Positions 15,152 to 33,397 of a DNA stretch of 33,397 nucleotides are shown piece after piece (position 1 is the stretch's first letter; every line of letters begins with the position of its first letter). A model generated the notes under the pieces. The model made no database searches. It was not told the origin of the DNA and was given only the letters and a program-made list of their open reading frames with translations. The position numbers were made by a program, and so were the translations under genes. Origin of the DNA: Pseudohongiella sp. (lineage in GTDB: Bacteria; Pseudomonadota; Gammaproteobacteria; Pseudomonadales; Pseudohongiellaceae); NCBI GenBank assembly GCA_030696315.1, contig JAUYSM010000045.1:1-33397 (forward strand), read 5' to 3'.

Positions 15152-15598
15152 TCAAGGTTTTTCCATGCGGAATATCAGGCGCTGCAACAAGCGCAGCGCA
15201 CTTTCAAGCTCATCGACCGGCACATCGTCTGTCAAGCCGATCGCCCAAGGGTCCTGCACCGTGCGTAAGGCGTGGTAAACCTGCTGCCCCTGATCCGTCA
15301 ACTGCACCAGCACCGAGCGCTTGTGGCGTGGATTGGTGGCGTAACTGACAAGTCCATCGGTTTGCATGACATCGGTAATGCGCTGCACGGCCTGTCGGGA
15401 CTGCCCCAGTGCCCGAGCGATGCCGGGCACGGTAACCCCGGCATTGGACAAGGCAATGATACCAATCACTTTCCAGCGCGCACTGGTCAGTCCGACTCCT
15501 TCCGCCATGCGGTCGCCATCAGCCAGTAAAAGACCATTGATACGGAAGATGGCCCGCACCAGGTCCAGAAAAAGTTTTCGTTTGGGAGAGTGGGCCAT
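15152..15598 (-). CDS. MarR-family transcriptional regulator
   Basis: 148-residue winged-helix DNA-binding protein from the chosen ATG at 15598; an upstream ATG at 15655 would add 19 residues. I prefer the shorter form because MAHSPKRKLFLDLVRAIF gives the usual first MarR helix and because the longer start would sit against the 15659-15678 dyad. Neither start has a strong Shine-Dalgarno. The domain is clear: SARWKVIGIIALSNAGVTVP, the recognition-helix region ALGQSRQAVQRITDVM, and the wing NPRHKRSVLVQLTDQG. MarR proteins usually repress neighbouring genes and release DNA on binding a phenolic or aromatic ligand. Here the gene lies directly downstream of a molybdenum hydroxylase operon on the same strand, so that operon and itself are the likely targets. 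The ligand is unknown. Confidence 0.88.
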   Translation of the reverse strand: MAHSPKRKLFLDLVRAIFRINGLLLADGDRMAEGVGLTSARWKVIGIIALSNAGVTVPGIARALGQSRQAVQRITDVMQTDGLVSYATNPRHKRSVLVQLTDQGQQVYHALRTVQDPWAIGLTDDVPVDELESALRLLQRLIFRMEKP

Positions 15599-15658
15599 GA
15601 GTTTGAATGATCTGCTCTGTAATTGGACAAGGATCAAGCCGGACGCGCTTAGCATCCG

Positions 15659-15678
15659 GCCTGATGATCGTGTCAGGC
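15659..15678. promoter_or_regulatory. Inverted repeat upstream of marR, candidate operator
   Basis: GCCTGA and TCAGGC are perfect 6-bp arms separated by 8 bases, and one further matching pair lies two bases outside each arm. The 20-bp dyad sits in the gap between the end of the molybdopterin subunit gene and the marR reading frame. MarR proteins bind dyads of about this size, so autoregulation is plausible. With no T-tract on the minus strand it is a poor terminator. Function is inferred only. Confidence 0.4.
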
Positions 15679-15711
15679 TGACTGTATGTTGTCAATCTGG
15701 CCAGACGCCAT

Positions 15712-18030
15712 TCACTGTCGGCGGCGACGGGCGGCGCGCTTGAGGGCTTTATGTATTGCCGGCGGCGACATGGGCAAATCAAACAGCCGTGTTCCGGCAG
15801 CACGGGCCACCGCATTGGCCACTGCACCCAGGGGCGGAATGATTGGCACTTCACCCACGCCTTTCACACCAAATGGATGACGGGGATTTGGCACTTCAAC
15901 CAGTACCGTGTCGATCATGGGCACATCCGAGGCCACGGGTATACGGTAATCCAGAAACCCAGGATTCAGCAGCCTGCCGTTTTCATCGTAGAGATAGGCT
16001 TCGTTTAATGCCCAGCCGATCCCTTGTACCGCGCCACCTTGCATTTGACCTTCGACGTACGCCGGATGAATCGCCTTGCCAACATCCTGAATAGCGGTGT
16101 AGCGCAGGACTTTGACGCCACCGGTTTCCGGATCAAGTTCAACGTCGCAGATGTGTGTGGCAAACCCGGGGCCAGCGCCTTGTGCGTTGATTGTAATCTC
16201 TGCTGTGATAGGACCACCCGTGTCTGCGCTGTGCTGTGCAAGCTCCGCCAGACTGAACCGCTTGGGCGTTGTAGCATTCATCAACAGGGCAAAACCAGCT
16301 GACCACGTCACCTGATCCTGATCTACCTGCCACAACAAGGCTGCCCTGCGCCGCAGATCTTCCACAACAGCGCTTGCCGCCTGTGACACGGCCATACCCA
16401 CCGCAAATGTCACCCGACTACCCCCCGTGAGATCGGAAGGTGCAATCGAACTGGTATCCACAATTTCAACCTGAATCTGCTCATAGGCAAGCCCCAGAAT
16501 ATCTGCGGCCATCATGGCCATAGAGGCCCGCGACCCACCAATATCAGGATTGCCCGTGCTTACAAGAACGGAGCCATCATTATTGATGCGGATGGCGGCA
16601 CTGGAGTGGCCACCAATATTGAACCAGAACCCGGATGCAATGCCTCGGCCCTGATGAGGACCAAGCGGGGCACTGTAATGCGGGTGATTGCGGGCAGCCT
16701 CGAGCGTCTGGCGATATCCGATGTTCTTGAAGTTCACGCCGTATGCTGTTTGTGTGCCATTGTCAGCAGCATTCAACATGCGCAATGCTATGGGATCCAT
16801 CTTAAGCTTTTGCGCCAGCATATCGATCAGGCTTTCGGCAGCAAACGATGCCATCGGCGCGCCCGGGGCGCGATAGGCCGCACTTTTGGGGCGATTGACC
16901 AGCACGTCATAACCAATCAATTTGACGTTAGGGATGTTGTAAGGCGCAAAGGCTGTCATACAACCGAGTCGCACCGGCGAGCCGGGGAAAGCGCCGGCCT
17001 GGTAACACAACACGCCTTCCACCGCCACGATTGTGCCATCGTTGCGCGCACCGATTTTGATGCTCATGTAGCTGCCAGACGTGGGGCCAGTCGCCTTGAA
17101 CACTTCCGCGCGGGTCATTTCCATACGTACCGGACAACCGGTTTTTTGCGATAACAGCACCGCCAAGGGTTCGAGATAGACAGTCGTTTTGCCACCAAAA
17201 CCGCCGCCTATTTCCATCGGAATCACACGAATATCGGACAGCGGCATTTGCAACAGACGGGCACAATAGGCCTGCACCATAAATTGCCCCTGACTACTGC
17301 ACCAGATATCAGTCTTCCCTGAAGGCGCCACTTGAGCCAGACACGCGTGTGGTTCTATATATGCTTGATGAACCGGTTGGGTCGTAAACTCCTCAACAAT
17401 AATAATTTCGGCTTCTGCAAAACCTGCGGCAACATCGCCATGAACCTGCTCGTAACGACTGGCAATATTTGACGGTTTTTTGGGAGCAGGTTTAATGCCT
17501 TTGGTGATGTTGTGTTCATTCAGCAGTGGCGCGTCCGGTTCCATGGCCTGTTGCAGATCGATAACATGCGGCAGAACCGCATAATCCACCTCAATCAACG
17601 ACAAGGCCTGCTGGGCGGTCATTTCATCAATGGCCGCAATCGCAGCAATTGCATGTCCCTCGTACAAGACTTTTTCGCGCGCCAGAATATTGGCCGACAT
17701 ATCCCTGAAATCGGGCGGCTGGCCTTTGTCCATGGCCAGTTCTTCTGCGATCAACGGCAAATCATCCGAGGTGATGATCGCTTTAACCCCCGGCAAGGCC
17801 AGCGCCGCAGAGACGTTGATTTTTAACAAACGCGCGTGCGCGTGCGGGCTCCTGAACACAACGCCGGTCAGCGTGCCGGGCAACTGTATATCCGCACCAA
17901 AGCGTGCCTTGCCTGTGACTTTATCAATACCGTCAGGACGTACTGGTCGGGTTCCGACTACCGAGCCCGATAACAACTTGCCAGAATTGAGCTCCGCAAC
18001 ATCTGCGTACTGGGTGGGCTCTTCGTTCAC
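15712..18030 (-). CDS. Xanthine dehydrogenase-family molybdopterin-binding subunit (large subunit)
   Basis: 772-residue catalytic subunit of a three-subunit molybdenum hydroxylase, which oxidises a carbon next to nitrogen or an aldehyde using water as the oxygen source. The a/b hammerhead domain is at about 30-145 (DKVTGKARFGADI). The molybdopterin domains contain EIGGGFGGKT, YRAPGAPMASFAAES and, near the end, GVKGVGE with E727 as the expected catalytic glutamate. No signal peptide is seen, so it should be cytosolic. The start is GTG, overlapping the 2Fe-2S gene stop as GTGA. Order FAD, Fe-S, Mo matches CO dehydrogenase/nicotinate or xanthine-type enzymes. The substrate cannot be assigned, and no xdhC-type maturation gene is adjacent. 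Confidence 0.9.
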   Translation of the reverse strand: MNEEPTQYADVAELNSGKLLSGSVVGTRPVRPDGIDKVTGKARFGADIQLPGTLTGVVFRSPHAHARLLKINVSAALALPGVKAIITSDDLPLIAEELAMDKGQPPDFRDMSANILAREKVLYEGHAIAAIAAIDEMTAQQALSLIEVDYAVLPHVIDLQQAMEPDAPLLNEHNITKGIKPAPKKPSNIASRYEQVHGDVAAGFAEAEIIIVEEFTTQPVHQAYIEPHACLAQVAPSGKTDIWCSSQGQFMVQAYCARLLQMPLSDIRVIPMEIGGGFGGKTTVYLEPLAVLLSQKTGCPVRMEMTRAEVFKATGPTSGSYMSIKIGARNDGTIVAVEGVLCYQAGAFPGSPVRLGCMTAFAPYNIPNVKLIGYDVLVNRPKSAAYRAPGAPMASFAAESLIDMLAQKLKMDPIALRMLNAADNGTQTAYGVNFKNIGYRQTLEAARNHPHYSAPLGPHQGRGIASGFWFNIGGHSSAAIRINNDGSVLVSTGNPDIGGSRASMAMMAADILGLAYEQIQVEIVDTSSIAPSDLTGGSRVTFAVGMAVSQAASAVVEDLRRRAALLWQVDQDQVTWSAGFALLMNATTPKRFSLAELAQHSADTGGPITAEITINAQGAGPGFATHICDVELDPETGGVKVLRYTAIQDVGKAIHPAYVEGQMQGGAVQGIGWALNEAYLYDENGRLLNPGFLDYRIPVASDVPMIDTVLVEVPNPRHPFGVKGVGEVPIIPPLGAVANAVARAAGTRLFDLPMSPPAIHKALKRAARRRRQ

Positions 18031-18527
18031 GACACGTCCCCTGTTAGATTTTGCATTGCAAGCGCATGTTTCGGCGCGGCATCCATAATGGCGCGCACAA
18101 TTTTATCGTAACCCGTGCACCGGCACAGATTGCCCGCAATCCAGTATCTGACTGTGGTCTCGTCCGGGTCGGGATTTTTGTCCAGCAGCGCTTTTGCGGC
18201 CATCAGCAAACCGGGTGTGCAAATACCGCATTGCAATGCCGCGTTATCCAGAAATGACTGCTGCAAGGGGTGCAAGGTGTCGCCCGATGCCAGGCCCTCC
18301 ACTGTCGCAATATCGGCCTGCTCGCACTCAACGGCCAAGACCAGACATGCACACACCAGTTCGCCATCAACAATCACGCTGCAGGCGCCGCAGTCACCCG
18401 TTGCGCAGCCGCTCTTGGTGCCGGTCAACTCTAAGGTCTGACGTAATACAGTCAGCAGCGTATCGCTTGTTTCACAGAGAAACTCACGGGCTTGACCATT
18501 GATGACGGTGTGGACGAGTTTTTTCAT
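18027..18527 (-). CDS. (2Fe-2S)-binding small subunit of molybdenum hydroxylase
   Basis: 166-residue electron-transfer subunit carrying two 2Fe-2S clusters that pass electrons from the molybdenum centre to FAD. The plant-ferredoxin-type cluster is held by C41, C46, C49 and C61. The second, helical cluster is held by C100, C103, C135 and C137, in the family contexts QCGICTPG and NLCRCTGY. All eight ligands are present. It has no signal peptide. It overlaps both neighbours by 4 bp (ATGA with the FAD gene, GTGA with the large-subunit gene), so the three are made in a fixed ratio. Confidence 0.94.
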   Translation of the reverse strand: MKKLVHTVINGQAREFLCETSDTLLTVLRQTLELTGTKSGCATGDCGACSVIVDGELVCACLVLAVECEQADIATVEGLASGDTLHPLQQSFLDNAALQCGICTPGLLMAAKALLDKNPDPDETTVRYWIAGNLCRCTGYDKIVRAIMDAAPKHALAMQNLTGDVS

Positions 18528-19384
18528 GCCATTGCCCTGCTGTATGCCACCAATGCGGCGCGTTCTGCCAAAACTGCGGTGACATCGGTGCGATATTCAG
18601 CGGATCCCCGTTTGTCACTGATAGGACGACACATCACGCTGACTTGTCGCTTGAAACGCTGCCTGACCTCGTCTTCCAGCCTGGTGCCCAACAGTATCCG
18701 CGCGGCTGCCAGTGCATACACTGGAATCGGGCCTACCGCGCCGAGTACCACATGACATTCCTGGATGACACCATGTTCATCCAGCGTGAGATTCACCGCC
18801 GCACCGGCGATGGCAATATCCATTTCAGTTCTCGGTGTCATACGCAGATACGCATCTGCGCTACGCTGAGGTCTGGCAGGCAGAGAAAAACTGACAATAA
18901 ATTCATCCTGACGCAAGCAGGTGCGGCCGGGAGAGACAATCACATCTTCAACCGGCAGTTCACGCTCACTGTTGCTGCCAGCAATACGACAACGGGCACG
19001 CGCCGCGATCAGCGCCGGCACCGAGTCTGCTGCTGGCGAGGCATTACACAAATTGCCGCCCAAGGACGCCCGCCCTTGAATCTGCACAGAACCAATCAGG
19101 TCCATCGCTTCTGTCAATCCAGGCCAGCTGGCCACCAAGGCTGTTTGCGCGCTGATCTGGTTGCCAGAACAGGCAGATCCAATCACAAAACCGCCGTCTG
19201 ATAACTGTCGAATCTCACGCGCTTCCGGCACTTTTTTAATGTCAATCACCAATGCTGGACGAGGCGTCCCGGCGGCGAATCGAGGCAACAAATCTGTGCC
19301 ACCCGCCATCACTTTTACCGTGCCAGATGCAGCCCCCAAAGCGGCGCACGCCTCAGCCAGTGTCCCTGGCGCACAATATTCCAT
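18524..19384 (-). CDS. FAD-binding subunit of molybdenum hydroxylase
   Basis: 286-residue medium subunit (CoxM/XdhB type) that binds FAD and passes electrons to the final acceptor. The FAD-binding motifs AGGTDLLP near residue 27 and SLGGNLCNASPAAD near 107-120 are clear, and a CO_deh_flav_C domain follows from about 175. I chose the ATG at 19384 over the GTG at 19390 because AGGGA then lies eight bases upstream; from the GTG the gap would be only two. It is the first gene of the operon. The 72-bp gap before it, downstream of the DUF481 gene, could hold a promoter. A small ATGTT/AACAT dyad is at 19403-19413. Confidence 0.92.
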   Translation of the reverse strand: MEYCAPGTLAEACAALGAASGTVKVMAGGTDLLPRFAAGTPRPALVIDIKKVPEAREIRQLSDGGFVIGSACSGNQISAQTALVASWPGLTEAMDLIGSVQIQGRASLGGNLCNASPAADSVPALIAARARCRIAGSNSERELPVEDVIVSPGRTCLRQDEFIVSFSLPARPQRSADAYLRMTPRTEMDIAIAGAAVNLTLDEHGVIQECHVVLGAVGPIPVYALAAARILLGTRLEDEVRQRFKRQVSVMCRPISDKRGSAEYRTDVTAVLAERAALVAYSRAMA

Positions 19385-19456
19385 CGTCACAGTCCCTGCA
19401 GAATGTTTAACATATAAAAACAGCCTGGCTCGAAAACCCTGAACCGCCCGATTGAC

Positions 19457-20227
19457 TCAGAATCGCAACAACACGGTCGCGGCAAATTCAGAGTCGGTCT
19501 TTTTGCGCGTCAAGGGCACCTCGGTCTGATGTTTTACTTTGATTGCAAACTTCATGGACAAATTTTCCATGATGTCAGATTCAACAGCCGTTTCAGAGCG
19601 GGCAATACTGGTCTCTTCACCTGCATCGACGCTTAGCGCCTGTATGAAACGCGCATTTTCAGATAATTGCCACTGATAATCGGTCGACAGTCGCAATATT
19701 GCTTCGCTGAACGAGTCTCCCGCCGGACCTGACTCTTTTGAGTTACGTACCCCGGCACCCGCCGTATACTGCAGGGTCATGTTCTCGGAATCTCGCAGTA
19801 GCTCCTGACCATAACTCACAGAAAAATCCGTCTGGCTGTCATAACCACTAAACCGATCATCGTCGTGTGCAACACGCGAGACCACAAAATTGTCTGGATC
19901 AAAGTTATAGGTGGCGCTGCCAATGCTGTAAAGGCGCTGGGCTGCCAGCACATCCTGTTTGGAGGATCGGAATCCATCAACAGAAAACAGATATGACCAT
20001 TGTTCGCGTGCTGCGTCGAACTGACCTTTAAAACGAATATTCTCGTCTTCGGTATTTCCTGCCGTAATCACAGCGCCCAATTCAAGCTGTGTTTGCAGAT
20101 CCCAGTTCTGTGCCATCGCAGACGTTGCTGTCAACATCAGTAAAGTACTCAGTGTCGCAACCAGAGTGCGTCGTGCGATTAAATGGTTTGCGAACATACT
20201 TTCTGGTTTATTTTGGGGTGATAACAT
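19457..20227 (-). CDS. DUF481 family outer-membrane protein
   Basis: 256 residues with an N-terminal signal peptide cut near AMA-Q (about residue 39). The mature part opens with NWDLQTQLELGAVITAGNTE, the typical DUF481 start, and runs as alternating beta strands to a terminal phenylalanine (VLLRF), as in beta-barrel proteins sorted by BAM. DUF481 proteins are salt-stress-induced outer-membrane proteins of unknown function. The chosen start has AGAGGAG six bases upstream; a second in-frame ATG ten codons later lacks a site. It reads away from the SixA-like gene (divergent, 144 bp) and towards the molybdenum hydroxylase operon, with which it could share a transcript. Confidence 0.85.
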   Translation of the reverse strand: MLSPQNKPESMFANHLIARRTLVATLSTLLMLTATSAMAQNWDLQTQLELGAVITAGNTEDENIRFKGQFDAAREQWSYLFSVDGFRSSKQDVLAAQRLYSIGSATYNFDPDNFVVSRVAHDDDRFSGYDSQTDFSVSYGQELLRDSENMTLQYTAGAGVRNSKESGPAGDSFSEAILRLSTDYQWQLSENARFIQALSVDAGEETSIARSETAVESDIMENLSMKFAIKVKHQTEVPLTRKKTDSEFAATVLLRF

Positions 20228-22817: not shown

Positions 22818-25028
22818 ATGACAATAAAAACAACACCCCTGATCCTGCTCAGCCTTGCCCTTGCAGCCTGTCAGGATACCGGTGATAACACGCCCGTGGA
22901 ACTCAGCCTGTCAGTCATATCCAGCGCCCCCCATCTGGTCACGGGCGGGGACGCTCTGATTGAAGTGCGTTACCGTCCAAACGACTTCCGCACACCTGAA
23001 CTCATGCTCAACGGCTCTGCTGCCGGTACAGATCTTTTCAACCGCTCACACAGCGTTGAACAGGATGGGGTCAGGATTGTAAATACGCTGGTCACCGGCC
23101 TGACCGAGGGCGAAAACACCCTGACCGCGTCACTGAATGGTTCACAAGCCAGCATTACACTGGTGAATTACCCCAAGACTGGCCCCGTGATCTCAGGTGC
23201 GCAGCAAACACCGTATGTTTGCCTGCAGGACCTCGCCCCAGACCGGGAAGGCAACCCCCGTCGCTTTGCAATTGGTAATGGCGAGTACCTGGATGTCAGC
23301 AGTCAATCTGAGGATTGTGCACTGCCCACGCGTTTTGACTACCTATATCGTGCGCAAGACAGTGAAGGTTTTGTCGCGCTGAATGACCCCAGGCAGTTGC
23401 CTGACAATGTCGCTCTAATAAGTACTGCCATGGGTCAGCAAGTGCCTTTTATTGTCAAACTGGAGACGGGCACCATCAACCGGGCGATCTATCAAATCGC
23501 TACGCTGTACGACCCAGAATCACAATCCGGTCGCTCATTCGGGTGGAACGGACGCTTGGTGTACAGTTACGGTGGTGGCTGCGAGGCGGGATATTTCCAG
23601 GGCACGTCCACCGGCGGCGTTTTGCGCGAGTCCACATTGGCGGCCGGTTATGCCGTCGCCTCATCCACCCTGAATGTGAATGCGCAGGGAGGATGTAATG
23701 ACGTGTTGTCCGCTGAAACCACCATGATGGTGAAAGAACATTTTACCGAACACTATGGTCCACCCGTGCATACCATTGGCACAGGGGGATCTGGCGGTGC
23801 CATGCAGCAACTGCTGATTGCGGGTGCTTACCCCGGCATTCTGGATGGTTTGCTGATCAGCATGACTTTCCCGGATGCAGTGACCTATTTCACCGACTCA
23901 CAGGAATGCAGCGGTCCCTGGCGCCGCTATGCAAACGACCCGGCCAACGGTCTGGATGAAGCCACCCGCACTCTTATCGGCGGCTGGCCGAACTGGTATC
24001 TGTGTGACCAGTCTCTGGGCTTACGTCCGGATCGCATTTCGCCTTTTGATTGTTCCGCAGAAATTCCGGCCATGCTGCATTACCATCCACAAACCAATCC
24101 CGGTGGCGCCCGATGCTCCATTTACGATGGTATGCGCAATGTCTTTGGTGAAAAGGTGTTCCCGGACATCAACAAAGATCGCGCGTTTGCAGTCAGCCCT
24201 CATGACAACGTGGGTGTTCAGTACGGCTTGATGGCGCTCAACCAAGGCTTGATAGATAAAGCGCTGTTTCTGGATATCAACGAGAAATTCGGAGGCTGGG
24301 ATATCGATTACCAGCCGACAACCGAACGTACACAAGGCGATAGTGACGCCATCCGTATCGCTTATGAAACCGGTCGTATTAGCAATGGCAGTGCGGGATT
24401 ATCCCGCGTGCCCATCATTGATGACCGCCCCTATCTTGATCACGAAGGTAACTTTCACGCCAGTGTGTACTCATTTGTGACGCGGGCAAGGCTGGAACGG
24501 GACAACGGCCATGCGGACAATTACGTGATCCGTCGTCATCAAAGTTCACTGTCACTGGCGGATGAAAATCTGATGCTGATGAATCGCTGGCTGGACTACA
24601 TCAAAGCGGATACCAGCAACCGACCACTGCTTGATCGTATTGCGGCCGCGCGGCCTGCTGAACTGGCGGATGATTGCTTCACACCTGAGGGCGAGCGCAT
24701 TGTTGAACCGGCAGTTTTTGATCTGACACGTATCCTCGACGGTACGCAGGCTGATGCAGATCAGGGGCGTTGCAATCAACTGTATCCTCCGCATGCTGGC
24801 TTACGTCTGGTGGCAGGTGCCCCACTCAGCAATGACATCATGAAATGTTCATTGAAACCCATCGACTATGATGATTACCGGGTTGAATTTACTGCGGACG
24901 AAAAACAACGCCTTGAGGCAATCTTCCCGCAAGGCGTTTGTGATTGGTCGCAACCAGGGCAGGCACAAGCCAGCAATGACACCTGGCTGTCTTTTGGTCC
25001 GTCACCCGTTAACTTATACCGCCCCTGA
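22818..25028 (+). CDS. DUF6351-type lipoprotein, probable alpha/beta-hydrolase fold
   Basis: 736 residues. The N-terminus is a lipoprotein signal with lipobox LAAC (C18); Gln at +2 predicts the outer membrane. An Ig-like beta domain (about 25-120) precedes the large catalytic-looking region. GTGGSGGAMQQ, with S325 in a Gly-x-Ser-x-Gly elbow, and the preceding YSYGGGCEAGYFQG fit an alpha/beta hydrolase. Many cysteines suggest disulfides outside the cytoplasm. I place it in the DUF6351 family from memory; its enzymes' substrates are not established to my knowledge. GGGAG lies seven bases before the ATG. Its last 15 bp overlap the convergent TRAP permease gene. A role in releasing a transportable acid from an ester is possible but unproven. 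Confidence 0.75.
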   Translation: MTIKTTPLILLSLALAACQDTGDNTPVELSLSVISSAPHLVTGGDALIEVRYRPNDFRTPELMLNGSAAGTDLFNRSHSVEQDGVRIVNTLVTGLTEGENTLTASLNGSQASITLVNYPKTGPVISGAQQTPYVCLQDLAPDREGNPRRFAIGNGEYLDVSSQSEDCALPTRFDYLYRAQDSEGFVALNDPRQLPDNVALISTAMGQQVPFIVKLETGTINRAIYQIATLYDPESQSGRSFGWNGRLVYSYGGGCEAGYFQGTSTGGVLRESTLAAGYAVASSTLNVNAQGGCNDVLSAETTMMVKEHFTEHYGPPVHTIGTGGSGGAMQQLLIAGAYPGILDGLLISMTFPDAVTYFTDSQECSGPWRRYANDPANGLDEATRTLIGGWPNWYLCDQSLGLRPDRISPFDCSAEIPAMLHYHPQTNPGGARCSIYDGMRNVFGEKVFPDINKDRAFAVSPHDNVGVQYGLMALNQGLIDKALFLDINEKFGGWDIDYQPTTERTQGDSDAIRIAYETGRISNGSAGLSRVPIIDDRPYLDHEGNFHASVYSFVTRARLERDNGHADNYVIRRHQSSLSLADENLMLMNRWLDYIKADTSNRPLLDRIAAARPAELADDCFTPEGERIVEPAVFDLTRILDGTQADADQGRCNQLYPPHAGLRLVAGAPLSNDIMKCSLKPIDYDDYRVEFTADEKQRLEAIFPQGVCDWSQPGQAQASNDTWLSFGPSPVNLYRP

Positions 25029-27014
25029 AACGTCCAATGAAGCGCGTGAGCGTCGACTGGCAAGGATGCCAATCACGCTCAGGCTCAGACCTGATACAAA
25101 CAAAGGAACATCGCCAATCGGTATGCCGATGGACTCCAGCCCGGGCAAGGCCACGAGGATGCCACCAAAAACAATCAGAACCCGTCCAACACCGGACCAC
25201 AATCCGGTTTTGTCCAGCAAACCCAGCACCGGCATGTAGCCTTGTAGACCGCCGGCAATCAGGGTAATTCCCAGCGCCACCACAATTGTTGTGAGCACAA
25301 TATCCGACACCGACCCCTGCATGATCAGTGCCGGCTCAAGCACAAAAAAGAAAGGAATAAAATAAATCACACTACCAAGCTGCATGGCTTTAAAGCCGGT
25401 TTTTAAGGCAGAAGCACCTGCGATACTGGCCGCTGCAAAGGCGCCCAGCGCGACCGGTGGCGTGATAAATGACAGCATACCCCAGTACAAAATGAACAGG
25501 TGCACACTCATGGGGTCGAGACCACCCTGCACAAGTGCGGGTGCCAGTACAATCGCCAGAAAAATATAGGCGGCGGTCACTGTCATACCAATACCCAGAA
25601 TAAAGCTGGTAAATGCCCCCATCAGCAGCAACATCAATATGGAATCACCCGCGATAAACAGCAGGTCGTTAACCAGCGTGCCCGACAATCCAGTGACAGA
25701 CAGAGCGCCCACAATCAAGCCGACGCCAGCCATAATAGCCAATAGCTCCACCAGCAACTTGCCGCAGGCCACCAGGAATGCACCGGTTTTATCGAGATCC
25801 CAGCGATTTTTAGGAGAGAGCTGATTCAACACCAGCAACATGCCGGTGGCATAAAATGGCGCCACCGCTTCACGCTGCATAAACACCAACAAAAAAATCA
25901 GCACGGCAAACGAGGCCATGTAGAACCAGCCTTCTTTCACCGTATCACTGAGTTTGGGCAACTCCTCACGCGGCGTGCCTTGTAAACCCTGGCGTGCAGC
26001 ATAGGCATCGATCTGCATAAACAAGCCAAAAAAGTACAGCAAAGCAGGAATAGTCGCCGCGATTGCAACCGTGGTGTAGGGCACATTCAGGAAGGTTGCC
26101 ATCACAAATGCAGTGGATCCCATGATGGGCGGCAACAGCACACCACCGGTAGACGCACAGGCCTCCACACCACCGGCATATTCACGCGAAAACCCATTTT
26201 TACGCATGGCCGGAATGGTCAGCGGGCCAGTGGACAGCACGTTGGTAATCACACTGCCGCTCATAGATCCCATCAAACCACTGGATACGATCGCTACTTT
26301 GGCAGAACCGCCGCGCACGTGACCAAACCCGGCAAAGGCCAGATTGATAAAAAAGCGTCCGCCACCAGTGTGCTGCAAGGCCACACCAAAAATCAGAAAT
26401 CCAATCACTAATTGCGCAAACGCACGAAAGGGCAAACCGAGAATACTTTCGATACTCATCACATGGTATGACGCGGTTTCGGCAGCAGATGAAGCCATAC
26501 CTGAGATTGGACCGGGCATCTTGTCCGCAAAAATCGGATAAATCGAAAACACCAGTACCAGCCAGAACAGTGTCGCCCCGCCGCAACGCCGCACAGCTTC
26601 CAAGGCAAGGGCCCACAACATATAACTCATGAACACTGCAGTGTCGGGCGCGGAAAACTCCCAGCCATAATCCAGCATGGTTTCCGAGTTTATAAAAAAG
26701 AATCCGCAGATACCAAACGTCGCCACACTCAGAATTATGTCGTACCAGTAGCGGGTAGCATTTTTAACGGGCGGATAAATCAGAAAACTGAACGGCAGCA
26801 GCAGTGCCAACAAGGCATAGTAATAGTGATTCTGGACGGTGATTACAAACTCCATCAGTGGCCGTTCGGAGAACAAGCGCAAGGAGTCCATCGCCAAAAA
26901 CACACTGAGAATTGCTGCAACCGCCACCAGCCAGCGCAGCAGCACCGGCATTTCTGTTGAAGATCTGAACGCGGTTAAACCGTTATTATTTTTATTATCG
27001 AGTATTGTGCTCAC
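25014..27014 (-). CDS. TRAP transporter fused permease subunit (DctQM fusion)
   Basis: 666-residue inner-membrane protein combining the small four-helix (DctQ-like) and large (DctM-like) permease parts, the form that accompanies TAXI-type binding proteins. Hydrophobic segments run almost continuously from residue 28 to 650. DctM motifs are strong: GSMSGSVITNVLSTGPLTIP, GGVEACASTGGVLLPPIMG, and later TPPVALGAFAAASIAG. The last 100 residues add further membrane spans, as in fused permeases with a C-terminal extension. TRAP systems import organic acids using the sodium gradient. The start is GTG, overlapping the binding-protein stop as GTGA. The stop lies inside the end of the oppositely oriented DUF6351-type gene. 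Confidence 0.95.
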   Translation of the reverse strand: MSTILDNKNNNGLTAFRSSTEMPVLLRWLVAVAAILSVFLAMDSLRLFSERPLMEFVITVQNHYYYALLALLLPFSFLIYPPVKNATRYWYDIILSVATFGICGFFFINSETMLDYGWEFSAPDTAVFMSYMLWALALEAVRRCGGATLFWLVLVFSIYPIFADKMPGPISGMASSAAETASYHVMSIESILGLPFRAFAQLVIGFLIFGVALQHTGGGRFFINLAFAGFGHVRGGSAKVAIVSSGLMGSMSGSVITNVLSTGPLTIPAMRKNGFSREYAGGVEACASTGGVLLPPIMGSTAFVMATFLNVPYTTVAIAATIPALLYFFGLFMQIDAYAARQGLQGTPREELPKLSDTVKEGWFYMASFAVLIFLLVFMQREAVAPFYATGMLLVLNQLSPKNRWDLDKTGAFLVACGKLLVELLAIMAGVGLIVGALSVTGLSGTLVNDLLFIAGDSILMLLLMGAFTSFILGIGMTVTAAYIFLAIVLAPALVQGGLDPMSVHLFILYWGMLSFITPPVALGAFAAASIAGASALKTGFKAMQLGSVIYFIPFFFVLEPALIMQGSVSDIVLTTIVVALGITLIAGGLQGYMPVLGLLDKTGLWSGVGRVLIVFGGILVALPGLESIGIPIGDVPLFVSGLSLSVIGILASRRSRASLDVSGAV

Positions 27015-28240
27015 GGCTCAGTTGTTTCCCATATAGGGGCAAATCCTGCAGCGCGCAGGCGTTCCGCACGCAGTTGATGCCAAGCCGTCAAAAATTCTTG
27101 CTGATCACGAATCCGCCGCCCCGTCACCTCGGTCCATGCACTGGCCAGTACGTCCTGGCGGCGTATCAGATCTGCGTTGTGAGCTTCGTATGCATCTGTC
27201 CACACCCCAATTTCTTTCCAGTAACGCACAGCCCCTTCATGGTAGGGCACAACCCAGTCAAACACCTGAAACTCCAGAGCCCAGCCTATGGCGCCTGGAT
27301 CCGCATCCTTGTAGGTGTCGTAATTTTCGTTCATTACCCGGGTCAGCCAATAAACAGTATCTTCATCCTGCTCAGCCTGTGTAATCAGAATGGGGTAAGG
27401 ATAGGTGCCGGCCTCTTGGGGATTTTCATCACTGATGCCCGGGCCACGGGTTGCGTTGTACTTTGTGAAGTACGGCGCAACGTTCAACAAACGCTCCCAG
27501 CAGGCGTCATCATCATGCGGGGCCGGCAACCAGGCGATGCCCCGTGGCGAAGCTTCAAGCCGACGTGTAGGTCCTGAGACGGTCGTGCCAAACGCCACAT
27601 CTACATCGCCGTTGATGATGCCTTCCCAGGCTGCGTCATAGCCCGGAAAGTCGACCCGCACCACGTCATTCCAGGTCAAACCGCCGCAGGCAAGGTAGGC
27701 TTCCATAGAAATATTCAGCGCCGGCGCGGCACGCACAAACGGCACACGGCGACCCCGTAATTCTGCAAAGGTAGACACTCCAATATCAGCGGCAACCGCA
27801 ACTGCCTGATTGCTCAGGCCACTGGAACTCATGACCATGCGAAGTGGCTGCGGTCCCCACTCCGGATCTGCAAACTGGTACACCCCTTCCTGTGCAAAGT
27901 ACGTCGCAACACCATTGGCTGAGAATTGCACTCGCCCGGTTTTAAGCGGTAACAAACGGGAAACATCGTTCTGCCCGGGAATAACCCTGAGTGTGACATT
28001 GTACTTTTCACGCAACATGGCCCCGATGGCAACCGATTGGTTGTAACCAGTTGTTCCCAGATTGTAGGCCGTCCACGCCATTTGAGCGGGCAATTGTGGC
28101 TGATCGCTCTGTGCGGATACGGGCCTGCTGCCAGTGATCACAACAGCACACAACAGACCGGCTGCCATCCCCATCAAACTATTTCTGACAAATGATTGGC
28201 GACCTGCGCCGTGTATGACACTCAAGTGCTTGAGTTGCAT
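27011..28240 (-). CDS. TAXI family TRAP transporter solute-binding protein
   Basis: 409-residue periplasmic binding protein that delivers a ligand to the TRAP permease downstream. Residues 1-44 form a signal peptide (MGMAAGLLCAVVITGSRPVSAQ). The TAXI fold starts with WTAYNLGTTGYNQSVAIG and includes RVIPGQNDVSRLLPLKTGRVQFS and GYDAAWEGIINGDVDVAFG. It is longer than the usual 320-residue TAXI protein by about 80 residues, mainly in the C-terminal third. The ATG at 28240 is chosen because GGGAG lies seven bases upstream and the signal peptide begins soon after; the open frame extends 40 codons further but without a plausible site. The ligand is unknown; glutamate and dicarboxylates are known for the family. 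Confidence 0.92.
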   Translation of the reverse strand: MQLKHLSVIHGAGRQSFVRNSLMGMAAGLLCAVVITGSRPVSAQSDQPQLPAQMAWTAYNLGTTGYNQSVAIGAMLREKYNVTLRVIPGQNDVSRLLPLKTGRVQFSANGVATYFAQEGVYQFADPEWGPQPLRMVMSSSGLSNQAVAVAADIGVSTFAELRGRRVPFVRAAPALNISMEAYLACGGLTWNDVVRVDFPGYDAAWEGIINGDVDVAFGTTVSGPTRRLEASPRGIAWLPAPHDDDACWERLLNVAPYFTKYNATRGPGISDENPQEAGTYPYPILITQAEQDEDTVYWLTRVMNENYDTYKDADPGAIGWALEFQVFDWVVPYHEGAVRYWKEIGVWTDAYEAHNADLIRRQDVLASAWTEVTGRRIRDQQEFLTAWHQLRAERLRAAGFAPIWETTEP

Positions 28241-28261
28241 TATTATTCTCCCGGAAGGGCA

Positions 28262-28279
28262 TTTGGCAAAGACGCCAAA
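28262..28279. promoter_or_regulatory. Inverted repeat between TAXI and MoaD-like genes, candidate operator
   Basis: TTTGGC and GCCAAA are perfect 6-bp arms around AAAGAC, giving an 18-bp dyad in the 131-bp divergent intergenic region. It lies 22 bp upstream of the TAXI start, where a repressor would block that operon. A second dyad, CTTCG-CCG-CGAAG, is at 28321-28333 on the MoaD-like side. No regulator gene adjoins them. Function is inferred from symmetry and position only. Confidence 0.4.
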
Positions 28280-28371
28280 GATTATCAGGGACAGTAACAC
28301 AGTGGAAGAAATATGCGATACTTCGCCGCGAAGACGTGGCAGCCTGTCACAAAAGGTCATTTCGGAGAATC

Positions 28372-28638
28372 ATGGCAAAACTGACAATCAACAGCCTTCT
28401 GCGTGATGCAGTATCTGTTAGCGGAAAAAACCTTCCGTCCGGCAAGTGGATGGAGGTCGAGGCCAATTCGGTGATTACACTGATCAAGGCGCTTGAGAAA
28501 TTGTACCCGGGCTGCGGCTCGGCTTTGACAACAGCATCTGTTGCCATTGACGGCGACATTTATAGCGAGGACGCATTGACAGAACCCTTGGACGAGCTCA
28601 GCGAAGTCGTTTTTATCCCATCGATCGAGGGCGGTTAA
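28372..28638 (+). CDS. MoaD/ThiS-like ubiquitin-fold sulfur carrier (orphan)
   Basis: 88-residue beta-grasp protein ending in Ile-Glu-Gly-Gly. The free C-terminal Gly-Gly is the feature that is adenylated and thiocarboxylated in MoaD and ThiS. The body fits the family: MAKLTINSLLRDAV, a central helix (VITLIKALEKLYPG), VAIDGDIY, and a last strand EVVFIPSIEGG. The ATG at 28372 has CGGAG five bases upstream; an ATG-initiated form from 28336 would add 12 residues. No moaE, moeB, thiG or other partner is in the window. It is divergent from the TAXI-TRAP operon and lies between two molybdenum hydroxylases, so a link to cofactor supply or to sulfur transfer in a catabolic path is possible. Its stop codon lies within a terminator stem. 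Confidence 0.82.
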   Translation: MAKLTINSLLRDAVSVSGKNLPSGKWMEVEANSVITLIKALEKLYPGCGSALTTASVAIDGDIYSEDALTEPLDELSEVVFIPSIEGG

Positions 28639-28677: not shown

Positions 28678-29049
28678 TTACTGACGAGTACCTGTTACAG
28701 CAATTGGTCCAAAATCTGTATTGAACTGGCCGGCGAGCTGGTCACCTGACACGGTACCGTTAAATGCCAGGGTGATTGTCTGACCTTGTGCATCAATAGT
28801 TGTGCTGAACTGAACAGCTTCGCCGTCAACTGTGATGCCGTTCAGTGCTGCTGAACCCAGGTCTGTTGAACTCATTTCGCCAGTCATGTCTGGGTTGATG
28901 TTCAAGTTACCGTTCATCGCGCCAACCGGTGTATCAATGGTAATTGCCCATGCACCCACCAACGGGTGCGGTGCTGAGGTGCCGGCACATGCTGTCAGCA
29001 GCAACGCCACCGCAAAACCCATCAGCAAAGATGCTATTCTTGTCTTCAT
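28678..29049 (-). CDS. Small putative lipoprotein
   Basis: 123 residues. A lipoprotein signal with lipobox LTAC (C21) is clear; Ala at +2 predicts the outer membrane. The mature part is a small beta-rich domain: HPLVGAWAITIDTPVGAMNG, then repeated strands with ALNGITVDG and LAFNGTVSGDQLAGQF. It looks like a lipocalin-like or calycin-like half barrel of the kind that opens with a G-x-W motif (GAW here), but I cannot assign a family. GGGGAA lies six bases before the ATG. It is convergent with the MoaD-like gene and divergent from the second molybdenum hydroxylase operon, separated from it by a 360-bp gap. Function unknown. Confidence 0.8.
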   Translation of the reverse strand: MKTRIASLLMGFAVALLLTACAGTSAPHPLVGAWAITIDTPVGAMNGNLNINPDMTGEMSSTDLGSAALNGITVDGEAVQFSTTIDAQGQTITLAFNGTVSGDQLAGQFNTDFGPIAVTGTRQ

Positions 29050-29054
29050 TACGA

Positions 29055-29067: not shown

Positions 29068-29255
29068 GAATTGTTATTTGCCCAAATGTTATTCAGAACT
29101 TTAAAATTGTTACCCGATATCTCGCGGAAGCACCTGACTATTGGCAAACGCTGTTTCGTCTAACACTGCATTGTTAAATTCCTGGAAAACCACTCGCTTA
29201 AAATGCAGCGCCTACTGTGATATTGAAATACCAAAGGGTCAACGCATTTTCGGCG

Positions 29256-29268
29256 ATTCCCCTTAAAA
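29256..29268. repeat. 13-bp direct repeat, copy 2
   Basis: Exact second copy of ATTCCCCTTAAAA, 201 bp from the first. It has no start codon close by on the minus strand, so it may be a remnant of a duplicated leader, or a binding site upstream of the right-hand operon. Confidence 0.6.
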
Positions 29269-29291
29269 TAGTGACCAATGGCCTATCAGTT

Positions 29292-29321
29292 TTGAGCAAA
29301 GCATCTTTGTCTGGAATTAAT
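29292..29321 (+). promoter_or_regulatory. Candidate sigma-70 promoter for the isoquinoline-oxidoreductase-type operon
   Basis: TTGAGC (29292-29297) and ATTAAT (29316-29321) are 18 bases apart, on the correct strand and about 90 bp before the first gene. Each hexamer matches the consensus in four or five positions. Weak evidence; other AT-rich hexamers lie nearby. Confidence 0.3.
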
Positions 29322-29409
29322 GGTGTGCTACAAAGGCGTCAGCACACATCCAGATATCCTGCAGACCACTGACAGATCCCCAAATTACCTTGCCAACAAG
29401 AGGCACACC

Positions 29410-29901
29410 ATGATCGAACTTCAAATTAACGGAGAAACGAGGCAACTCGATATTGAGCCGGAGATGCCCTTATTGTGGGCACTTCGCAATGAACTGGGGC
29501 TGACTGGCACCAAATTTGGGTGCGGAATCGCTGCCTGCGGCGCCTGTACAGTTCATGTTAACGGACAGGCCATCCGCAGTTGTGTGACACCGGTCAGTGC
29601 CGTGCAGAACACTCAGATTACCACCATCGAAGGGCTCTCTGCCGGCGGCCTGACGCCAGTGCAGCAAGCCTGGATTCAACACCAGATTCCCCAGTGTGGT
29701 TATTGCCAGTCCGGCATGATCATGGCAGTGAGCGCACTGCTTGAGTCCAACCCCAACCCCGACGAGCAAGCCGTCGCGAACAGCATCAGTAATGTTTGTC
29801 GCTGTGGTACGTATCCGCGTATCAGCAAAGCCATTGCCGGATTGATTGCAAACCGCACCGACACCCCCTTTGTTGATGCGACCGCGGAGGCCAGTGTATG
29901 A
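29410..29901 (+). CDS. (2Fe-2S)-binding subunit, isoquinoline 1-oxidoreductase alpha type
   Basis: 163-residue small subunit of a two-gene molybdenum hydroxylase. Both 2Fe-2S clusters are complete: C38, C43, C46 and C58 for the ferredoxin-type cluster, and C96, C99, C130 and C132 for the helical one (QCGYCQSG, NVCRCGTY). The CGYCQSGM and CRCGTYPRI spelling is that of IorA-type subunits rather than xanthine dehydrogenase. The ATG at 29410 is preceded by AAGAGG six bases away; the open frame extends 30 codons upstream without family character. It has no signal peptide of its own and would travel with the large subunit. It overlaps the next gene by 4 bp (ATGA). Confidence 0.93.
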   Translation: MIELQINGETRQLDIEPEMPLLWALRNELGLTGTKFGCGIAACGACTVHVNGQAIRSCVTPVSAVQNTQITTIEGLSAGGLTPVQQAWIQHQIPQCGYCQSGMIMAVSALLESNPNPDEQAVANSISNVCRCGTYPRISKAIAGLIANRTDTPFVDATAEASV

Positions 29902-32135
29902 GTATTTCACGCAGACGTTTTTTATTAGGTGCCGCCGTTGTCGGTGGCGGATTGCTGCTGGGTTATGCCAGCACACGCCCCAGCCGCCAGAGTATCGCCA
30001 ACCGCGACTATGCTGAGGATGGCCAGACGTTTCTGACAACCTGGTTGCGTATTGATCCAGACAATATCGTGACGGTTATTGTGCCGCATTCGGAAATGGG
30101 ACAGGGTGTACTGACGTCTCTGCCCATGATGGCTGCAGATGAACTGGATGCAGACTGGGCGAATGTCCGTGTCGAGCAGGCTCCTGCAACCGACCTGTTT
30201 GCCAACGGCGTGCTGGTTAAAGGTTTTGCGGCCTCCATGGGTTTTGCTGCGCCGGCGTTCCTTAACAGGACGATGGATTTTGTGACCTTAAAAGCTGCTG
30301 AAATCATGAATATGCAAATCACCGGTGGCAGCAGCTCCGTGCGATTTACGGGTGAAATGGGCATGCGCGCGGCCGGCGCGGCTGCTCGTGAAATGCTGGT
30401 TAAAGCCGCTGCGCAAGCGTGGGATGTGCCCGCCTCAGAAATCGCAACACGCAACAGCCGGGTTTATCACGAAGCCAGCAACCGCAGCCTGAGTTATGGT
30501 GAACTGGCCAGCGCGGCGGCGCAGTTTGAACCGTCTCGTTCACCCGTGCTGAAACGCCCTGATCAGTTCACGCTGATGGGTACATCGGTGCCCCGCGTTG
30601 ACATCCCTGCCAAAGTGGACGGCACCGCGCAATTTGGTATCGACGCCATGCCAGAAGGCATGCTTTATGCGGCAGTCACTACCTCGCCGGTGTTTGGTGG
30701 GCAATTACAAAGCGTTGGCAACAAAGATGCTGCACTGCAACAGCGCGGTGTTGTTCGTATTGTTGAGCTCAGCGATGCCGTTGCGGTAGTCGCTGACAAC
30801 TACTGGCGGGCTAACAAAGCGTTGGCACTGCTACAACCGGTTTTCAGCAGCACCGACGCAGACAACCGATCCAGCACTGATATTTTTGCTGACTTTGATG
30901 CGGCACTGGATAACGGCGAACGTTTTGAAGATGTGGTGGTGGGTGATGCCGGGCAAGCTCTGGCCAGCACCGCCGATGTGATCACTGCAAACTATCGCGT
31001 ACCATTCCTGGCGCACGCCGCCATGGAGCCCATGAACTGCACGGTGTTGTTCCGCGAGGGTCGCTGTGAGGTGTGGACCGGCACACAAGACAACCTTGGT
31101 ATTCGCGGCAGAGTTGCCACGGTAGCCGACCTCGACGAAAACTCGGTCACTGTACACCCGTTTTATCTGGGGGGCGGTTTTGGCCGTCGCCTGCCGATGT
31201 CAACCAACACCATTGATCAGGCTACGCTGATCGCACAGCAGTTTGATGTGCCTGTACAAACCTTGTGGAGTCGTGAAGAAGATACCCGCCAGGACTATTA
31301 TCGCCCAGCGGTAAGCAGTCGCTTCCGCGCCGGTTTTGACAGCAGTGGCAATCTGGTAGCCTGGGAAAATGCCTATATCGGTAAAAATGAGCCGGTAGAA
31401 GCCGCCCATATTGCCTACAGCATTCCCAATCAGAAGATTGATTATGTTGAGAGCCCAACCCATGTTCCGTTTGGCGCATGGCGCAGTGTTGCACACTCAC
31501 AGCACACGTTTTTCCTGGAGTCCTTTACTGACGAGCTGGCATGGAAGCAGCAGCAGGACCCGCTGCAATTCAGACTATCGATGCTCGCCAATAAACCGCG
31601 CCACGCGCGCGTGCTGCGCGAAGCTGCCGACAAGGCCGGATGGTCAACACCTGCCCCCGCCGGTCGTGCACGCGGCATCGCACTTCAGGAAAGTTTCGGA
31701 AGTATCGTTGCGGAAGTTGCCGAAGTGTCATTGACTGACGATGGCCGCGTCCGCGTTGAGAAAGTGACCTGCGCCATCGATTGTGGTCGCGTGGTGCACC
31801 CCGACAATGCTGCCTCTCAAGTGGAGAGCGGCATCATTTACGGACTGACAGCCGCCATGTATGGTCAGATCAGCATTGAGCAAGGTCGCGTCAAAGAAAG
31901 TAATTTCCATGACTATGAAATGCTGCGTTTGTCCGAGTCTCCCGAAATCCAGGTGGTACTGCTGGAATCAGAAGGCGCTTCAATCGGTGGATTGGGTGAA
32001 CCTGCCACGCCGCCGATTTCTGCTGCCGTGAGTAATGCGCTGTATGCGCTGACGGGCCAACGCGTCAGAGAGTTACCATTAAAAAATTACCGCTTCCTGC
32101 CACCGCCGGTTGAGCGTGGCGCGGTTGATGCGTGA
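29898..32135 (+). CDS. Molybdopterin-binding subunit, isoquinoline 1-oxidoreductase beta type, Tat-exported
   Basis: 745-residue catalytic subunit. The N-terminus SRRRFLLGAAVVGGGLLLG is a twin-arginine signal, so the folded enzyme should go to the periplasm with its Fe-S subunit. The duplicated aldehyde-oxidase-type molybdopterin domains include YLGGGFGRRLP, GAWRSVAHSQHTFFLESF and, near the end, GGLGEPATPP with E701 as the expected catalytic glutamate. The layout is that of IorB and related membrane-side aldehyde or N-heterocycle oxidoreductases, which usually pass electrons to a cytochrome c; no cytochrome or FAD subunit gene follows here. The substrate is unknown. The gene ends before a strong bidirectional terminator. 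Confidence 0.92.
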   Translation: MSISRRRFLLGAAVVGGGLLLGYASTRPSRQSIANRDYAEDGQTFLTTWLRIDPDNIVTVIVPHSEMGQGVLTSLPMMAADELDADWANVRVEQAPATDLFANGVLVKGFAASMGFAAPAFLNRTMDFVTLKAAEIMNMQITGGSSSVRFTGEMGMRAAGAAAREMLVKAAAQAWDVPASEIATRNSRVYHEASNRSLSYGELASAAAQFEPSRSPVLKRPDQFTLMGTSVPRVDIPAKVDGTAQFGIDAMPEGMLYAAVTTSPVFGGQLQSVGNKDAALQQRGVVRIVELSDAVAVVADNYWRANKALALLQPVFSSTDADNRSSTDIFADFDAALDNGERFEDVVVGDAGQALASTADVITANYRVPFLAHAAMEPMNCTVLFREGRCEVWTGTQDNLGIRGRVATVADLDENSVTVHPFYLGGGFGRRLPMSTNTIDQATLIAQQFDVPVQTLWSREEDTRQDYYRPAVSSRFRAGFDSSGNLVAWENAYIGKNEPVEAAHIAYSIPNQKIDYVESPTHVPFGAWRSVAHSQHTFFLESFTDELAWKQQQDPLQFRLSMLANKPRHARVLREAADKAGWSTPAPAGRARGIALQESFGSIVAEVAEVSLTDDGRVRVEKVTCAIDCGRVVHPDNAASQVESGIIYGLTAAMYGQISIEQGRVKESNFHDYEMLRLSESPEIQVVLLESEGASIGGLGEPATPPISAAVSNALYALTGQRVRELPLKNYRFLPPPVERGAVDA

Positions 32136-32149
32136 TGTAATTCGGCAAT

Positions 32150-32183
32150 AAAAAAAACGGCTACCGATTGGTAGCCGTTTTTT
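32150..32183. terminator. Bidirectional rho-independent terminator
   Basis: CGGCTACC (32158-32165) and GGTAGCCG (32170-32177) form a perfect 8-bp stem with a GATT loop. Eight A bases precede it and six T bases follow, so it can stop transcription on both strands. It lies between the convergent Mo-hydroxylase operon and the right-edge copper protein gene and would serve both. Confidence 0.93.
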
Positions 32184-32200
32184 ATTGCGCCAGCAGAAAG

Positions 32201-33397
32201 TTACAACTGATCGACCATGTTGGTCTGAATCATGAATTGCTGAAACTCTGCGAACTCCAGACCACCGGTTTTGTCCTTATCCATCATGGCAAATACCAAG
32301 GCCAATTGCTGACGCGCCTGCTCGGGCATCTCATCCAGACTGACGCGACCATCCATATTTTTGTCGAACATACCCATACCCAGCGAAGTGAAGTAATCGG
32401 GTACATTGATTTCGAAGTCGTTCTCGCGCGCCTCTGCGTAGCGGAAGGAAATACCGCCGTACAACATCTCTTCCCAGGTCTGCTCACCAAAACGCACGGT
32501 GACTGTCGGGTCAGGGTTGCTCAGATTAGCCGTTGAATTGTCATAGGTAGTGCGGTGAATAACCAGAGTGCCGGCCGGCACCGCTATAGGCTGTTGAAAC
32601 TGGAAGTAACGCTGCCAGTTAAAATCGTAATTTGGCACGGATAACACCACTTCTTCGCGGCCATCGGGGTAACGCAGTGCAAACTCGGATGAACGCCCCC
32701 GGTAGTGAGCATGCGGGAACAGGCTGTAGATCACCGCATCACGCTGGAAAGCATAGTAGGAGCTCTCTTCGTGCTCAGCCTCACCCGCAGGAATATTCAA
32801 ATCCTGGTTGATGATCGAATAGTGCTGAAGCACGTGGTGAGGCGCTTCATCCGCAAAATATAATCCGATTTTGGTCTGATCACGGGTTTCACGGCCGTAG
32901 GTTGTGTAATGCATTTGTGTATAAAACGATGTGCCTGCAGGCACAAATACACCGGTGTCTTCCGGATACACGTAGGTGTCATTTCCTGGCACAAACGTCA
33001 TTAACTGTGGCTGGAACAAAGACGAGCTGCTGTTACCCATACCACCGGGCACGGAGCCAAAGGTGGCAATGGCATGGTGCACAACCTGACGATCACCCGG
33101 GGCAATCTGTACAGCTTTTACCCAGACGTCGCGATCCAGTGTGTTAGGTACCTCAAAAAACTGATAGTCCAGGGATCCGGTGGCAGGAATATCAAATTCC
33201 GGCAGCGTTATAATGTAGTCAGGCTCTCCCATCGACCATTCGGTCAACTGCGCATCCACGGCGGTCAGGGGGTCATCACCTGCACCGCGAGGCGAGCCAG
33301 CATCTATCCAGGATAAGAGTTGCTGTTTTTGCTCAACAGACAGACTCATGTCGTGCATAAATTCACCGATCGCAGGATCAGCATGCCATGGCGGCAT
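32201..33397 (-). CDS. PHM-like copper monooxygenase-fold protein with C-terminal EF-hands (5' end missing)
   Basis: 398 residues are visible; the N-terminus lies beyond the right edge. The Met at the very edge is an internal residue of an MPPWHADP motif, not a start. This motif and the following LLSWIDAGSPRGAGDD resemble the end of the cytochrome c-like domain often found ahead of this fold. The copper type II monooxygenase-like region follows. HH (visible residues 107-108), H163 in MHYTTYG, HAH (229-231) and M311 match in order the copper ligands of peptidylglycine hydroxylating monooxygenase. Two EF-hand loops, DKNMDGRVSLDE (345-356) and DKDKTGGLEFAE (373-384), end the protein. It is probably exported. 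Substrate unknown. A shared terminator lies just downstream. Confidence 0.8.
   Translation of the reverse strand: MPPWHADPAIGEFMHDMSLSVEQKQQLLSWIDAGSPRGAGDDPLTAVDAQLTEWSMGEPDYIITLPEFDIPATGSLDYQFFEVPNTLDRDVWVKAVQIAPGDRQVVHHAIATFGSVPGGMGNSSSSLFQPQLMTFVPGNDTYVYPEDTGVFVPAGTSFYTQMHYTTYGRETRDQTKIGLYFADEAPHHVLQHYSIINQDLNIPAGEAEHEESSYYAFQRDAVIYSLFPHAHYRGRSSEFALRYPDGREEVVLSVPNYDFNWQRYFQFQQPIAVPAGTLVIHRTTYDNSTANLSNPDPTVTVRFGEQTWEEMLYGGISFRYAEARENDFEINVPDYFTSLGMGMFDKNMDGRVSLDEMPEQARQQLALVFAMMDKDKTGGLEFAEFQQFMIQTNMVDQL

Follow-up and report, generated by a model that had tools for sequence, protein, structure and literature searches.

A MoaD-like protein paired with a three-subunit molybdenum hydroxylase is a candidate dedicated sulfur carrier for cofactor assembly

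Gene content of the locus

The window, by which we mean the whole stretch of DNA analysed here, comprises 33,397 nt from Pseudohongiella and is one entire contig (C37) of a genome of 4.0 Mb spread over 117 contigs. All the gene parts named in a preliminary description of it, the copper monooxygenase excepted, are open reading frames whose profile matches agree with the description. A gene for a MarR-type regulator (15152-15655, reverse strand; PF12802) lies beside the genes of a three-subunit hydroxylase of the xanthine dehydrogenase family on the same strand: xdhL (15712-18030; PF02738, PF20256, PF01315) for the Mo-binding large subunit, xdhS (18027-18527; PF01799 and PF00111, both cysteine motifs present) for the 2 x [2Fe-2S] subunit and xdhM (18524-19390; PF00941, PF03450) for the FAD subunit. 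Further along are a forward-strand gene for a DUF6351 tannase-like protein (22818-25028; PF19878, 750 bits) and, on the reverse strand, the genes for a fused TRAP permease (25014-27014) and a TAXI solute-binding protein (27011-28360, the start perhaps being 28240). The gene for a MoaD-like carrier (28372-28638, forward strand) comes next, followed by one for a small lipoprotein-like protein (28678-29049, reverse strand), which is divergent from the forward-strand genes for an IorA-like 2 x [2Fe-2S] subunit (29410-29901; PF01799, PF00111) and an IorB-like Mo subunit (29898-32135; PF02738, PF20256). The last gene (32201-33397, reverse strand), for an EF-hand protein, is truncated by the contig end.

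The two molybdenum hydroxylases that had been singled out within about 18 kb are thus both present, but their proximity is less striking than it seemed, since the whole genome has five PF02738 Mo-subunit matches, of which two are within the window. The description of the first as a cytosolic three-subunit enzyme (15712-19390) was borne out by overlapping open reading frames with profile matches and, by eye, no export signal. The hydrolase described as exported corresponds to the tannase-like protein, which has a lipoprotein-like start by eye and which we treat as separate from the other parts.

The cytosolic enzyme

The FAD, 2 x [2Fe-2S] and Mo subunits are encoded together, as in the three-subunit xanthine dehydrogenase type. 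The best solved relative of XdhL is the alpha subunit of 4-hydroxybenzoyl-CoA reductase, and its best NCBIfam match is TIGR03194. However, none of the three subunit models for 4-hydroxybenzoyl-CoA reductase reached its equivalog cut-off (478.7 bits for XdhL with TIGR03194 against 994.55, and 108.7 against 404.55 and 162.4 against 257.8 bits for the others), and the subunits were under every NCBIfam cut-off reported. The enzyme resembles the 4-hydroxybenzoyl-CoA reductase/three-subunit xanthine dehydrogenase family in subunit make-up and domains, but differs in scoring below the NCBIfam cut-offs. Aerobic CO dehydrogenase of form I is marked by an AYxCSFR loop; this pattern was not found in XdhL, which has AYRAPGAPM at residue 385. 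An identity as form I CO dehydrogenase or as 4-hydroxybenzoyl-CoA reductase was accordingly ruled out, by the missing motif and the sub-cut-off scores.

The nearest named relatives of XdhL are those of a Pseudohongiella MAG (99% identity) and of strain LSUCC0112 (90%). Neighbours of the xdh genes vary among relatives and include acyl-CoA dehydrogenases and CoA-transferase-like and aldehyde-dehydrogenase-like genes (mostly named by eye), and in one clade the neighbours of xdhL are a P450-like gene and a TAXI-TRAP. The MarR gene was considered as the enzyme's own regulator and rejected, because G017 and G020, in which the search found no XdhL, have it too. In three members of the genus the xdh slot is occupied by other xanthine-dehydrogenase-type sets (L044, 1921-4886, in G009; L045, 15100-18065, in G007; L046, 7585-10741, in G012), and in G007 and G009 a 686-aa protein begins with a 2Fe-2S-like domain.

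The carrier

The gene at 28372-28638 had been described as an orphan MoaD-like carrier with a free GG terminus. Its product is indeed a GG-ending protein of the MoaD/ThiS type, with the C-terminus IEGG, but it is an orphan in position only, having an enzyme partner in relatives. The match to PF02597 is barely above the cut-off for the isolated protein (22.8 against 22.5 bits) and just under it in the whole-genome scan (22.2 bits); four relatives scored from 13.9 to 44.7 bits. The predicted model (pLDDT 92.6) is a beta-grasp fold with CysO, MoaD and SAMP1 among the top fold matches, the best Foldseek match being CysO (3dwg_C, E 3.9e-5, TM 0.72 by query length). A search of PDB sequences with a profile of nine carrier sequences gave a single match (E 0.029), which we took as chance. 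The last glycine is the sole invariant column in 61 aligned carrier sequences, and the C-terminus is GG in 61 of 67 carriers and AG in the other 6.

Elsewhere in the genome, a moaD gene lies between moaC and moaE and a thiS gene beside thiG (neighbours named by eye). With an ordinary moaD and thiS present, the window's carrier is therefore an extra one, and the idea that it is the genome's sole MoaD was discarded. A second TAXI-TRAP in the same genome (L088, 8845-12130; permease 53% identical) sits beside thiG and a trmB-like gene, apparently by chance; the ThiS gene near it, on contig C38, was rejected as a meaningful association because it adjoins thiG. One further PF02597 match each, elsewhere in the genome, was seen in G001, G012 and G014 (22.0 to 28.3 bits).

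Linkage of carrier and enzyme

We searched a sample of 76 genomes, consisting of the window's own and its relatives, for the importer permease, IorB, the carrier and XdhL. XdhL (E <= 1e-100) was found in 16, five of them from other families; the members of the window's family outside the genus had neither the cytosolic enzyme at this threshold nor a carrier match. Fifteen of the 16 XdhL genomes also had the carrier (12 by single-sequence search, and G054, G067 and G068 by profile), the exception being G008. Within the window, the carrier gene is in another transcription unit than xdhL and about 10 kb from it, a displacement found in the genus; in G049 and G050, which are from other families, it comes immediately after xdhM-xdhS-xdhL. 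The carrier was not found in G007, G009 or G012, the genomes in which xdhL is replaced by other xanthine-dehydrogenase-type genes.

The association was also seen in wider samples. Across 390 genomes of the order, XdhL (E <= 1e-150) occurred in 36, a match to the carrier profile in 38 and both in 34 (hypergeometric p 5e-42, a value that ignores shared descent), and of 46 carrier matches, 31 were on the strand of xdhL and at most 500 bp downstream of it. Four genomes had a carrier match without XdhL at the threshold (G144, G156, G189 and G344; all weak, E 2.7e-5 to 7e-4), two had XdhL without a carrier match (G008 and G316), and the 14 with two XdhL matches were evenly divided between those with two carrier matches (7) and those with one (7). 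In a sample of 369 genomes of the class, XdhL (E <= 1e-150) was found in 12 and a strong carrier match (E <= 1e-15) in exactly the same 12, the profile used here (A2) being tuned to the carrier subfamily because it was built largely from carriers found adjoining xdhL. The two genes are adjacent in all 11 of these genomes beyond the window's own, all of them from other orders; a second xdhL, in G773, is without a carrier neighbour. A further 22 genomes of the class sample gave weak carrier matches (E 1e-6 to 1e-3), perhaps ordinary MoaD proteins.

Among GTDB genomes, a scan for XdhL yielded 274 relatives, and the 80 best of these served as the named loci, with carriers counted by tblastn and profiles. 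The carrier adjoins xdhL in 42 of these 80 and is missing beside it in 35, while 3 loci are cut off; the 35 had room for a carrier, and 2 of them are from Pseudohongiella, where it is displaced. On a tree built from 87 sequences, 5 changes suffice for the carrier label, whereas 500 shuffles required 26.5 on average, in a test that ignores shared descent. The tree is a quick one, in which any stop in a tblastn-derived translation was replaced by X. The Pseudohongiella loci L121 and L122, whose carrier lies outside the fetched stretch (as given by the coordinates for L122 and assumed for L121), were labelled carrier-bearing by hand, and the three cut-off loci were assigned to neither group. One alphaproteobacterial group (Rhodospirillales, Acetobacteraceae and kin) accounts for 30 of the 34 carrier-less rows, and the rows with a carrier take in loci given as Myxococcota and Binatota (MAG labels). 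This distribution suggests an old partnership of carrier and enzyme with one loss in the alphaproteobacterial group, a direction that we infer on a tree whose root is arbitrary. The XdhL relatives in the 30 alphaproteobacterial rows lack the carrier, which is therefore not strictly required.

In one Myxococcota-labelled MAG (L167, 12232-13419), a single frame contains PF02597 followed by PF00941 and PF03450, so that the carrier is fused N-terminally to the FAD subunit. Long frames in G538 and G630 that were considered as further fusions proved to be upstream extensions overlapping xdhL in another frame, and were rejected. Taken together, these comparisons of gene content and gene order argue strongly that the carrier is paired with the cytosolic enzyme across many bacteria, and the carrier is probably this enzyme's own cofactor helper.

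Role of the carrier

In the mechanism we propose, the carrier would be adenylated by a MoeB/ThiF-type enzyme, its last glycine would become a thiocarboxylate, and the sulfur of that thiocarboxylate would be passed into the molybdenum cofactor of the cytosolic hydroxylase only. The simplest route of delivery would be through the dithiolene-forming step, together with MoaE; alternatively, the carrier might supply the Mo=S ligand. We think it rather probable that the window consists of several separate modules in a stable chromosomal slot, and that the family of the cytosolic hydroxylase has its own dedicated MoaD-like sulfur carrier for cofactor assembly.

A comparable arrangement is described in the gene-neighbourhood survey of Iyer et al. 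(2006, PMC1779556), where one set of MoaDs is strictly linked to tungsten aldehyde:ferredoxin oxidoreductase (AOR) and is proposed to serve its cofactor; the precedent includes the MoaD-like AorD and AorE of Aromatoleum (PMC6365974). There too, a MoaD-family gene adjoins one cofactor enzyme and, in some organisms, stands apart from the general moa operon, and in Azoarcus it is fused to the enzyme (PMC1779556). The partner there, however, is a tungsten AOR and not, as here, a molybdenum hydroxylase from the xanthine dehydrogenase family, and the only fusion seen here joins the carrier to the FAD subunit. The carrier is like the MoaD of molybdopterin synthase in its fold, its C-terminal GG and PF02597, but unlike it in lying outside the moa operon, at the edge of PF02597, in tracking one enzyme family and in having an ordinary moaD alongside it in the genome. 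CysO of Mycobacterium tuberculosis, although the best Foldseek match, serves cysteine synthesis according to the title of its entry, and no such gene partner was noticed here. No description of a carrier paired with the xanthine dehydrogenase family appears among the titles and abstract openings of the literature matches listed, subscription literature lying outside that scope, and the main text of the survey of Iyer et al. (2006, PMC1779556) contains neither "xanthine" nor "dehydrogenase".

The maturation of xanthine oxidase/dehydrogenase family enzymes usually depends on XdhC-type chaperones (PMC2997495). XdhC, the usual helper in sulfuration, was present in 13 of 13 genomes tested, both with and without the carrier; there is therefore no sign of the carrier substituting for XdhC, and such a replacement was ruled out. 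The more specific proposal that the hydroxylases of this family receive their equatorial sulfido ligand (Mo=S) directly from the carrier, by a thiocarboxylate route to sulfuration of the active site beside or instead of the known cysteine desulfurase/XdhC route, seems to us unlikely. A private MoaD-like carrier kept by a large lineage suggests an additional or alternative sulfur supply, and offers a hint for the active expression of such enzymes in a foreign host, namely to add the carrier.

Another way to view the carrier is as a ubiquitin-like subunit with a structural or regulatory role in the enzyme, and not as a sulfur donor, in the manner of TmoB in toluene monooxygenase. Strict co-occurrence with one enzyme fits this reading, as does the natural fusion to the FAD subunit, which places the GG motif internally, and the ubiquitin-like TmoB is, according to PMC1779556, encoded with toluene monooxygenase. 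However, an internal GG can be released by cleavage: PMC4326299 reports that MoaX, a fusion of MoaD and MoaE, is active only once cleaved at its GG motif, so that fusion does not by itself make a carrier structural. A terminal glycine conserved in all 61 sequences would be needless in a purely structural role, and the MoaD-like proteins AorD and AorE are reported to be missing from the purified AOR of Aromatoleum (PMC6365974). A subunit role thus appears unlikely. It is decidedly unlikely, in our estimation, that the carrier is a redundant second MoaD for general molybdopterin synthesis whose operon link is hitchhiking. The sameness of its fold with that of MoaD, and the many XdhL relatives without a carrier, would agree with redundancy; its tight co-occurrence with one enzyme family would not, and neither would the lack of a carrier match in G007, G009 and G012, which have other xanthine-dehydrogenase-type genes in the slot.

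The importer and the exported enzyme

The TAXI-TRAP importer (25014 to 28240 or 28360, depending on the start chosen) was confirmed by matches over the cut-offs, with 181 against 84.35 bits for the solute-binding protein (TIGR02122) and 551.4 against 320.65 bits for the permease (TIGR02123). The exported two-subunit enzyme (29410-32135) likewise stood, its Tat export being predicted from a twin-arginine motif in the large subunit (RRRFL, residue 5). Enzymes of the isoquinoline 1-oxidoreductase type (IorAB) have two subunits and no FAD subunit. Consistent with this, the exported enzyme is made up of two IorAB-like subunits and no gene for an FAD subunit lies beside them among the window's genes. 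The best solved relative of the IorB-like subunit is the large subunit of an aldehyde dehydrogenase (8gy3).

In the 76-genome sample, the exported enzyme (IorB, at least 58% identity) was found in 28 genomes, the window's own included, and the importer permease (at least 74% identity) in 16. All 16 have the exported enzyme, side by side with the importer in 14, and the importer is missing in 12 of the 28 genomes with the exported enzyme. These counts give moderate support for a pair formed by importer and exported enzyme, which is found in two genera only. The two form a neighbouring module, probably an independent one, for periplasmic oxidation and uptake, and G007 and G009 keep the importer despite their replaced xdh slot. 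A literature search for IorAB paired with TRAP gave no lead. Importer orthologues of G046 and G042 (L050, 4246-11962, and L051, 9418-18908, respectively) lie near PQQ-dependent-dehydrogenase-like genes (one by Pfam, the others by likeness), neighbours that give a possible hint at the class of substrate imported.

The small protein encoded at 28678-29049 (123 aa) is lipoprotein-like and has no Pfam match. In all 23 fetched loci with IorA, its gene is next to the IorAB genes and divergent from them. The product is predicted to be an eight-stranded beta barrel, with no fold match below E 0.001 and designed barrels and fatty-acid-binding proteins as the best matches. It is possibly an accessory of the exported enzyme.

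The preliminary description joined the parts into one system, in which a compound would be oxidised by IorAB in the periplasm, taken up by the TAXI-TRAP importer and oxidised again by the cytosolic enzyme, and suggested looking for repeated co-occurrence of the five parts in related genomes. After placing the genes of the window on 40 fetched stretches, we found the five parts together only within the genus, where they share a single slot on the chromosome next to housekeeping genes (purA to nnrDE), and scattered outside it. Because gene order, including that of the housekeeping neighbours, is largely conserved in the genus, co-occurrence there mostly reflects shared descent and is weak evidence. 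Seven enzyme-bearing stretches from other orders (10-19 kb) had no TRAP match, and their only IorA and IorB matches were on xdhS and xdhL themselves. Given the scatter outside the genus and the lack of TRAP at these enzyme loci, a single pathway is therefore unsupported, and we consider it very improbable. The adjacency of importer and IorAB in 14 of 16 importer genomes speaks for it, as do 4 of the 80 named loci, in which a low-identity TAXI-TRAP (permease 30-34%) and a P450-like gene lie just upstream of xdhL and the carrier. However, these four loci belong to a single clade of the tree, and so perhaps stem from one event, and the importer orthologues in G046 and G042 are near the PQQ-dehydrogenase-like genes instead. 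What stands of a joint role is the strong link between carrier and cytosolic enzyme and the moderate one between importer and exported enzyme; the five parts as one system do not.

Overall, a TRAP permease match was present in six of the named loci (best 80 of 274 relatives), namely L122 from Pseudohongiella, four of one clade, and L162, where it is weak. In the gammaproteobacterial loci L176 (4086-13832), L187, L191 and L198, a TAXI-TRAP, a cytochrome P450-like gene, xdhL and the carrier gene are consecutive (Pfam-tested in L176), and no xdhM or xdhS match was assigned in these stretches.

The truncated last gene

The gene at 32201-33397 had been read as a copper monooxygenase, an assignment that we do not retain: it is cut by the contig end at 33397, and neither the fragment nor three full-length homologues reach the cut-off of a copper domain. 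No copper monooxygenase domain of Pfam was found in the window's fragment at E 0.001, and a PDB search with the truncated EF-hand protein gave no useful match. In two of the three full-length homologues PF03712 appears below the cut-off (E 0.045 and 0.23), and in the third it does not appear. EF hands are above the cut-off in two of the three and AhpC/TSA in one. The full-length homologue from G001 (L036, 16696-18684) has an unusual mix of domains that fits no clear family, combining a redoxin-like N-terminus and a CxxCH motif, both seen by eye, with EF hands matched by Pfam; the weak PF03712 matches are those of the other two homologues.
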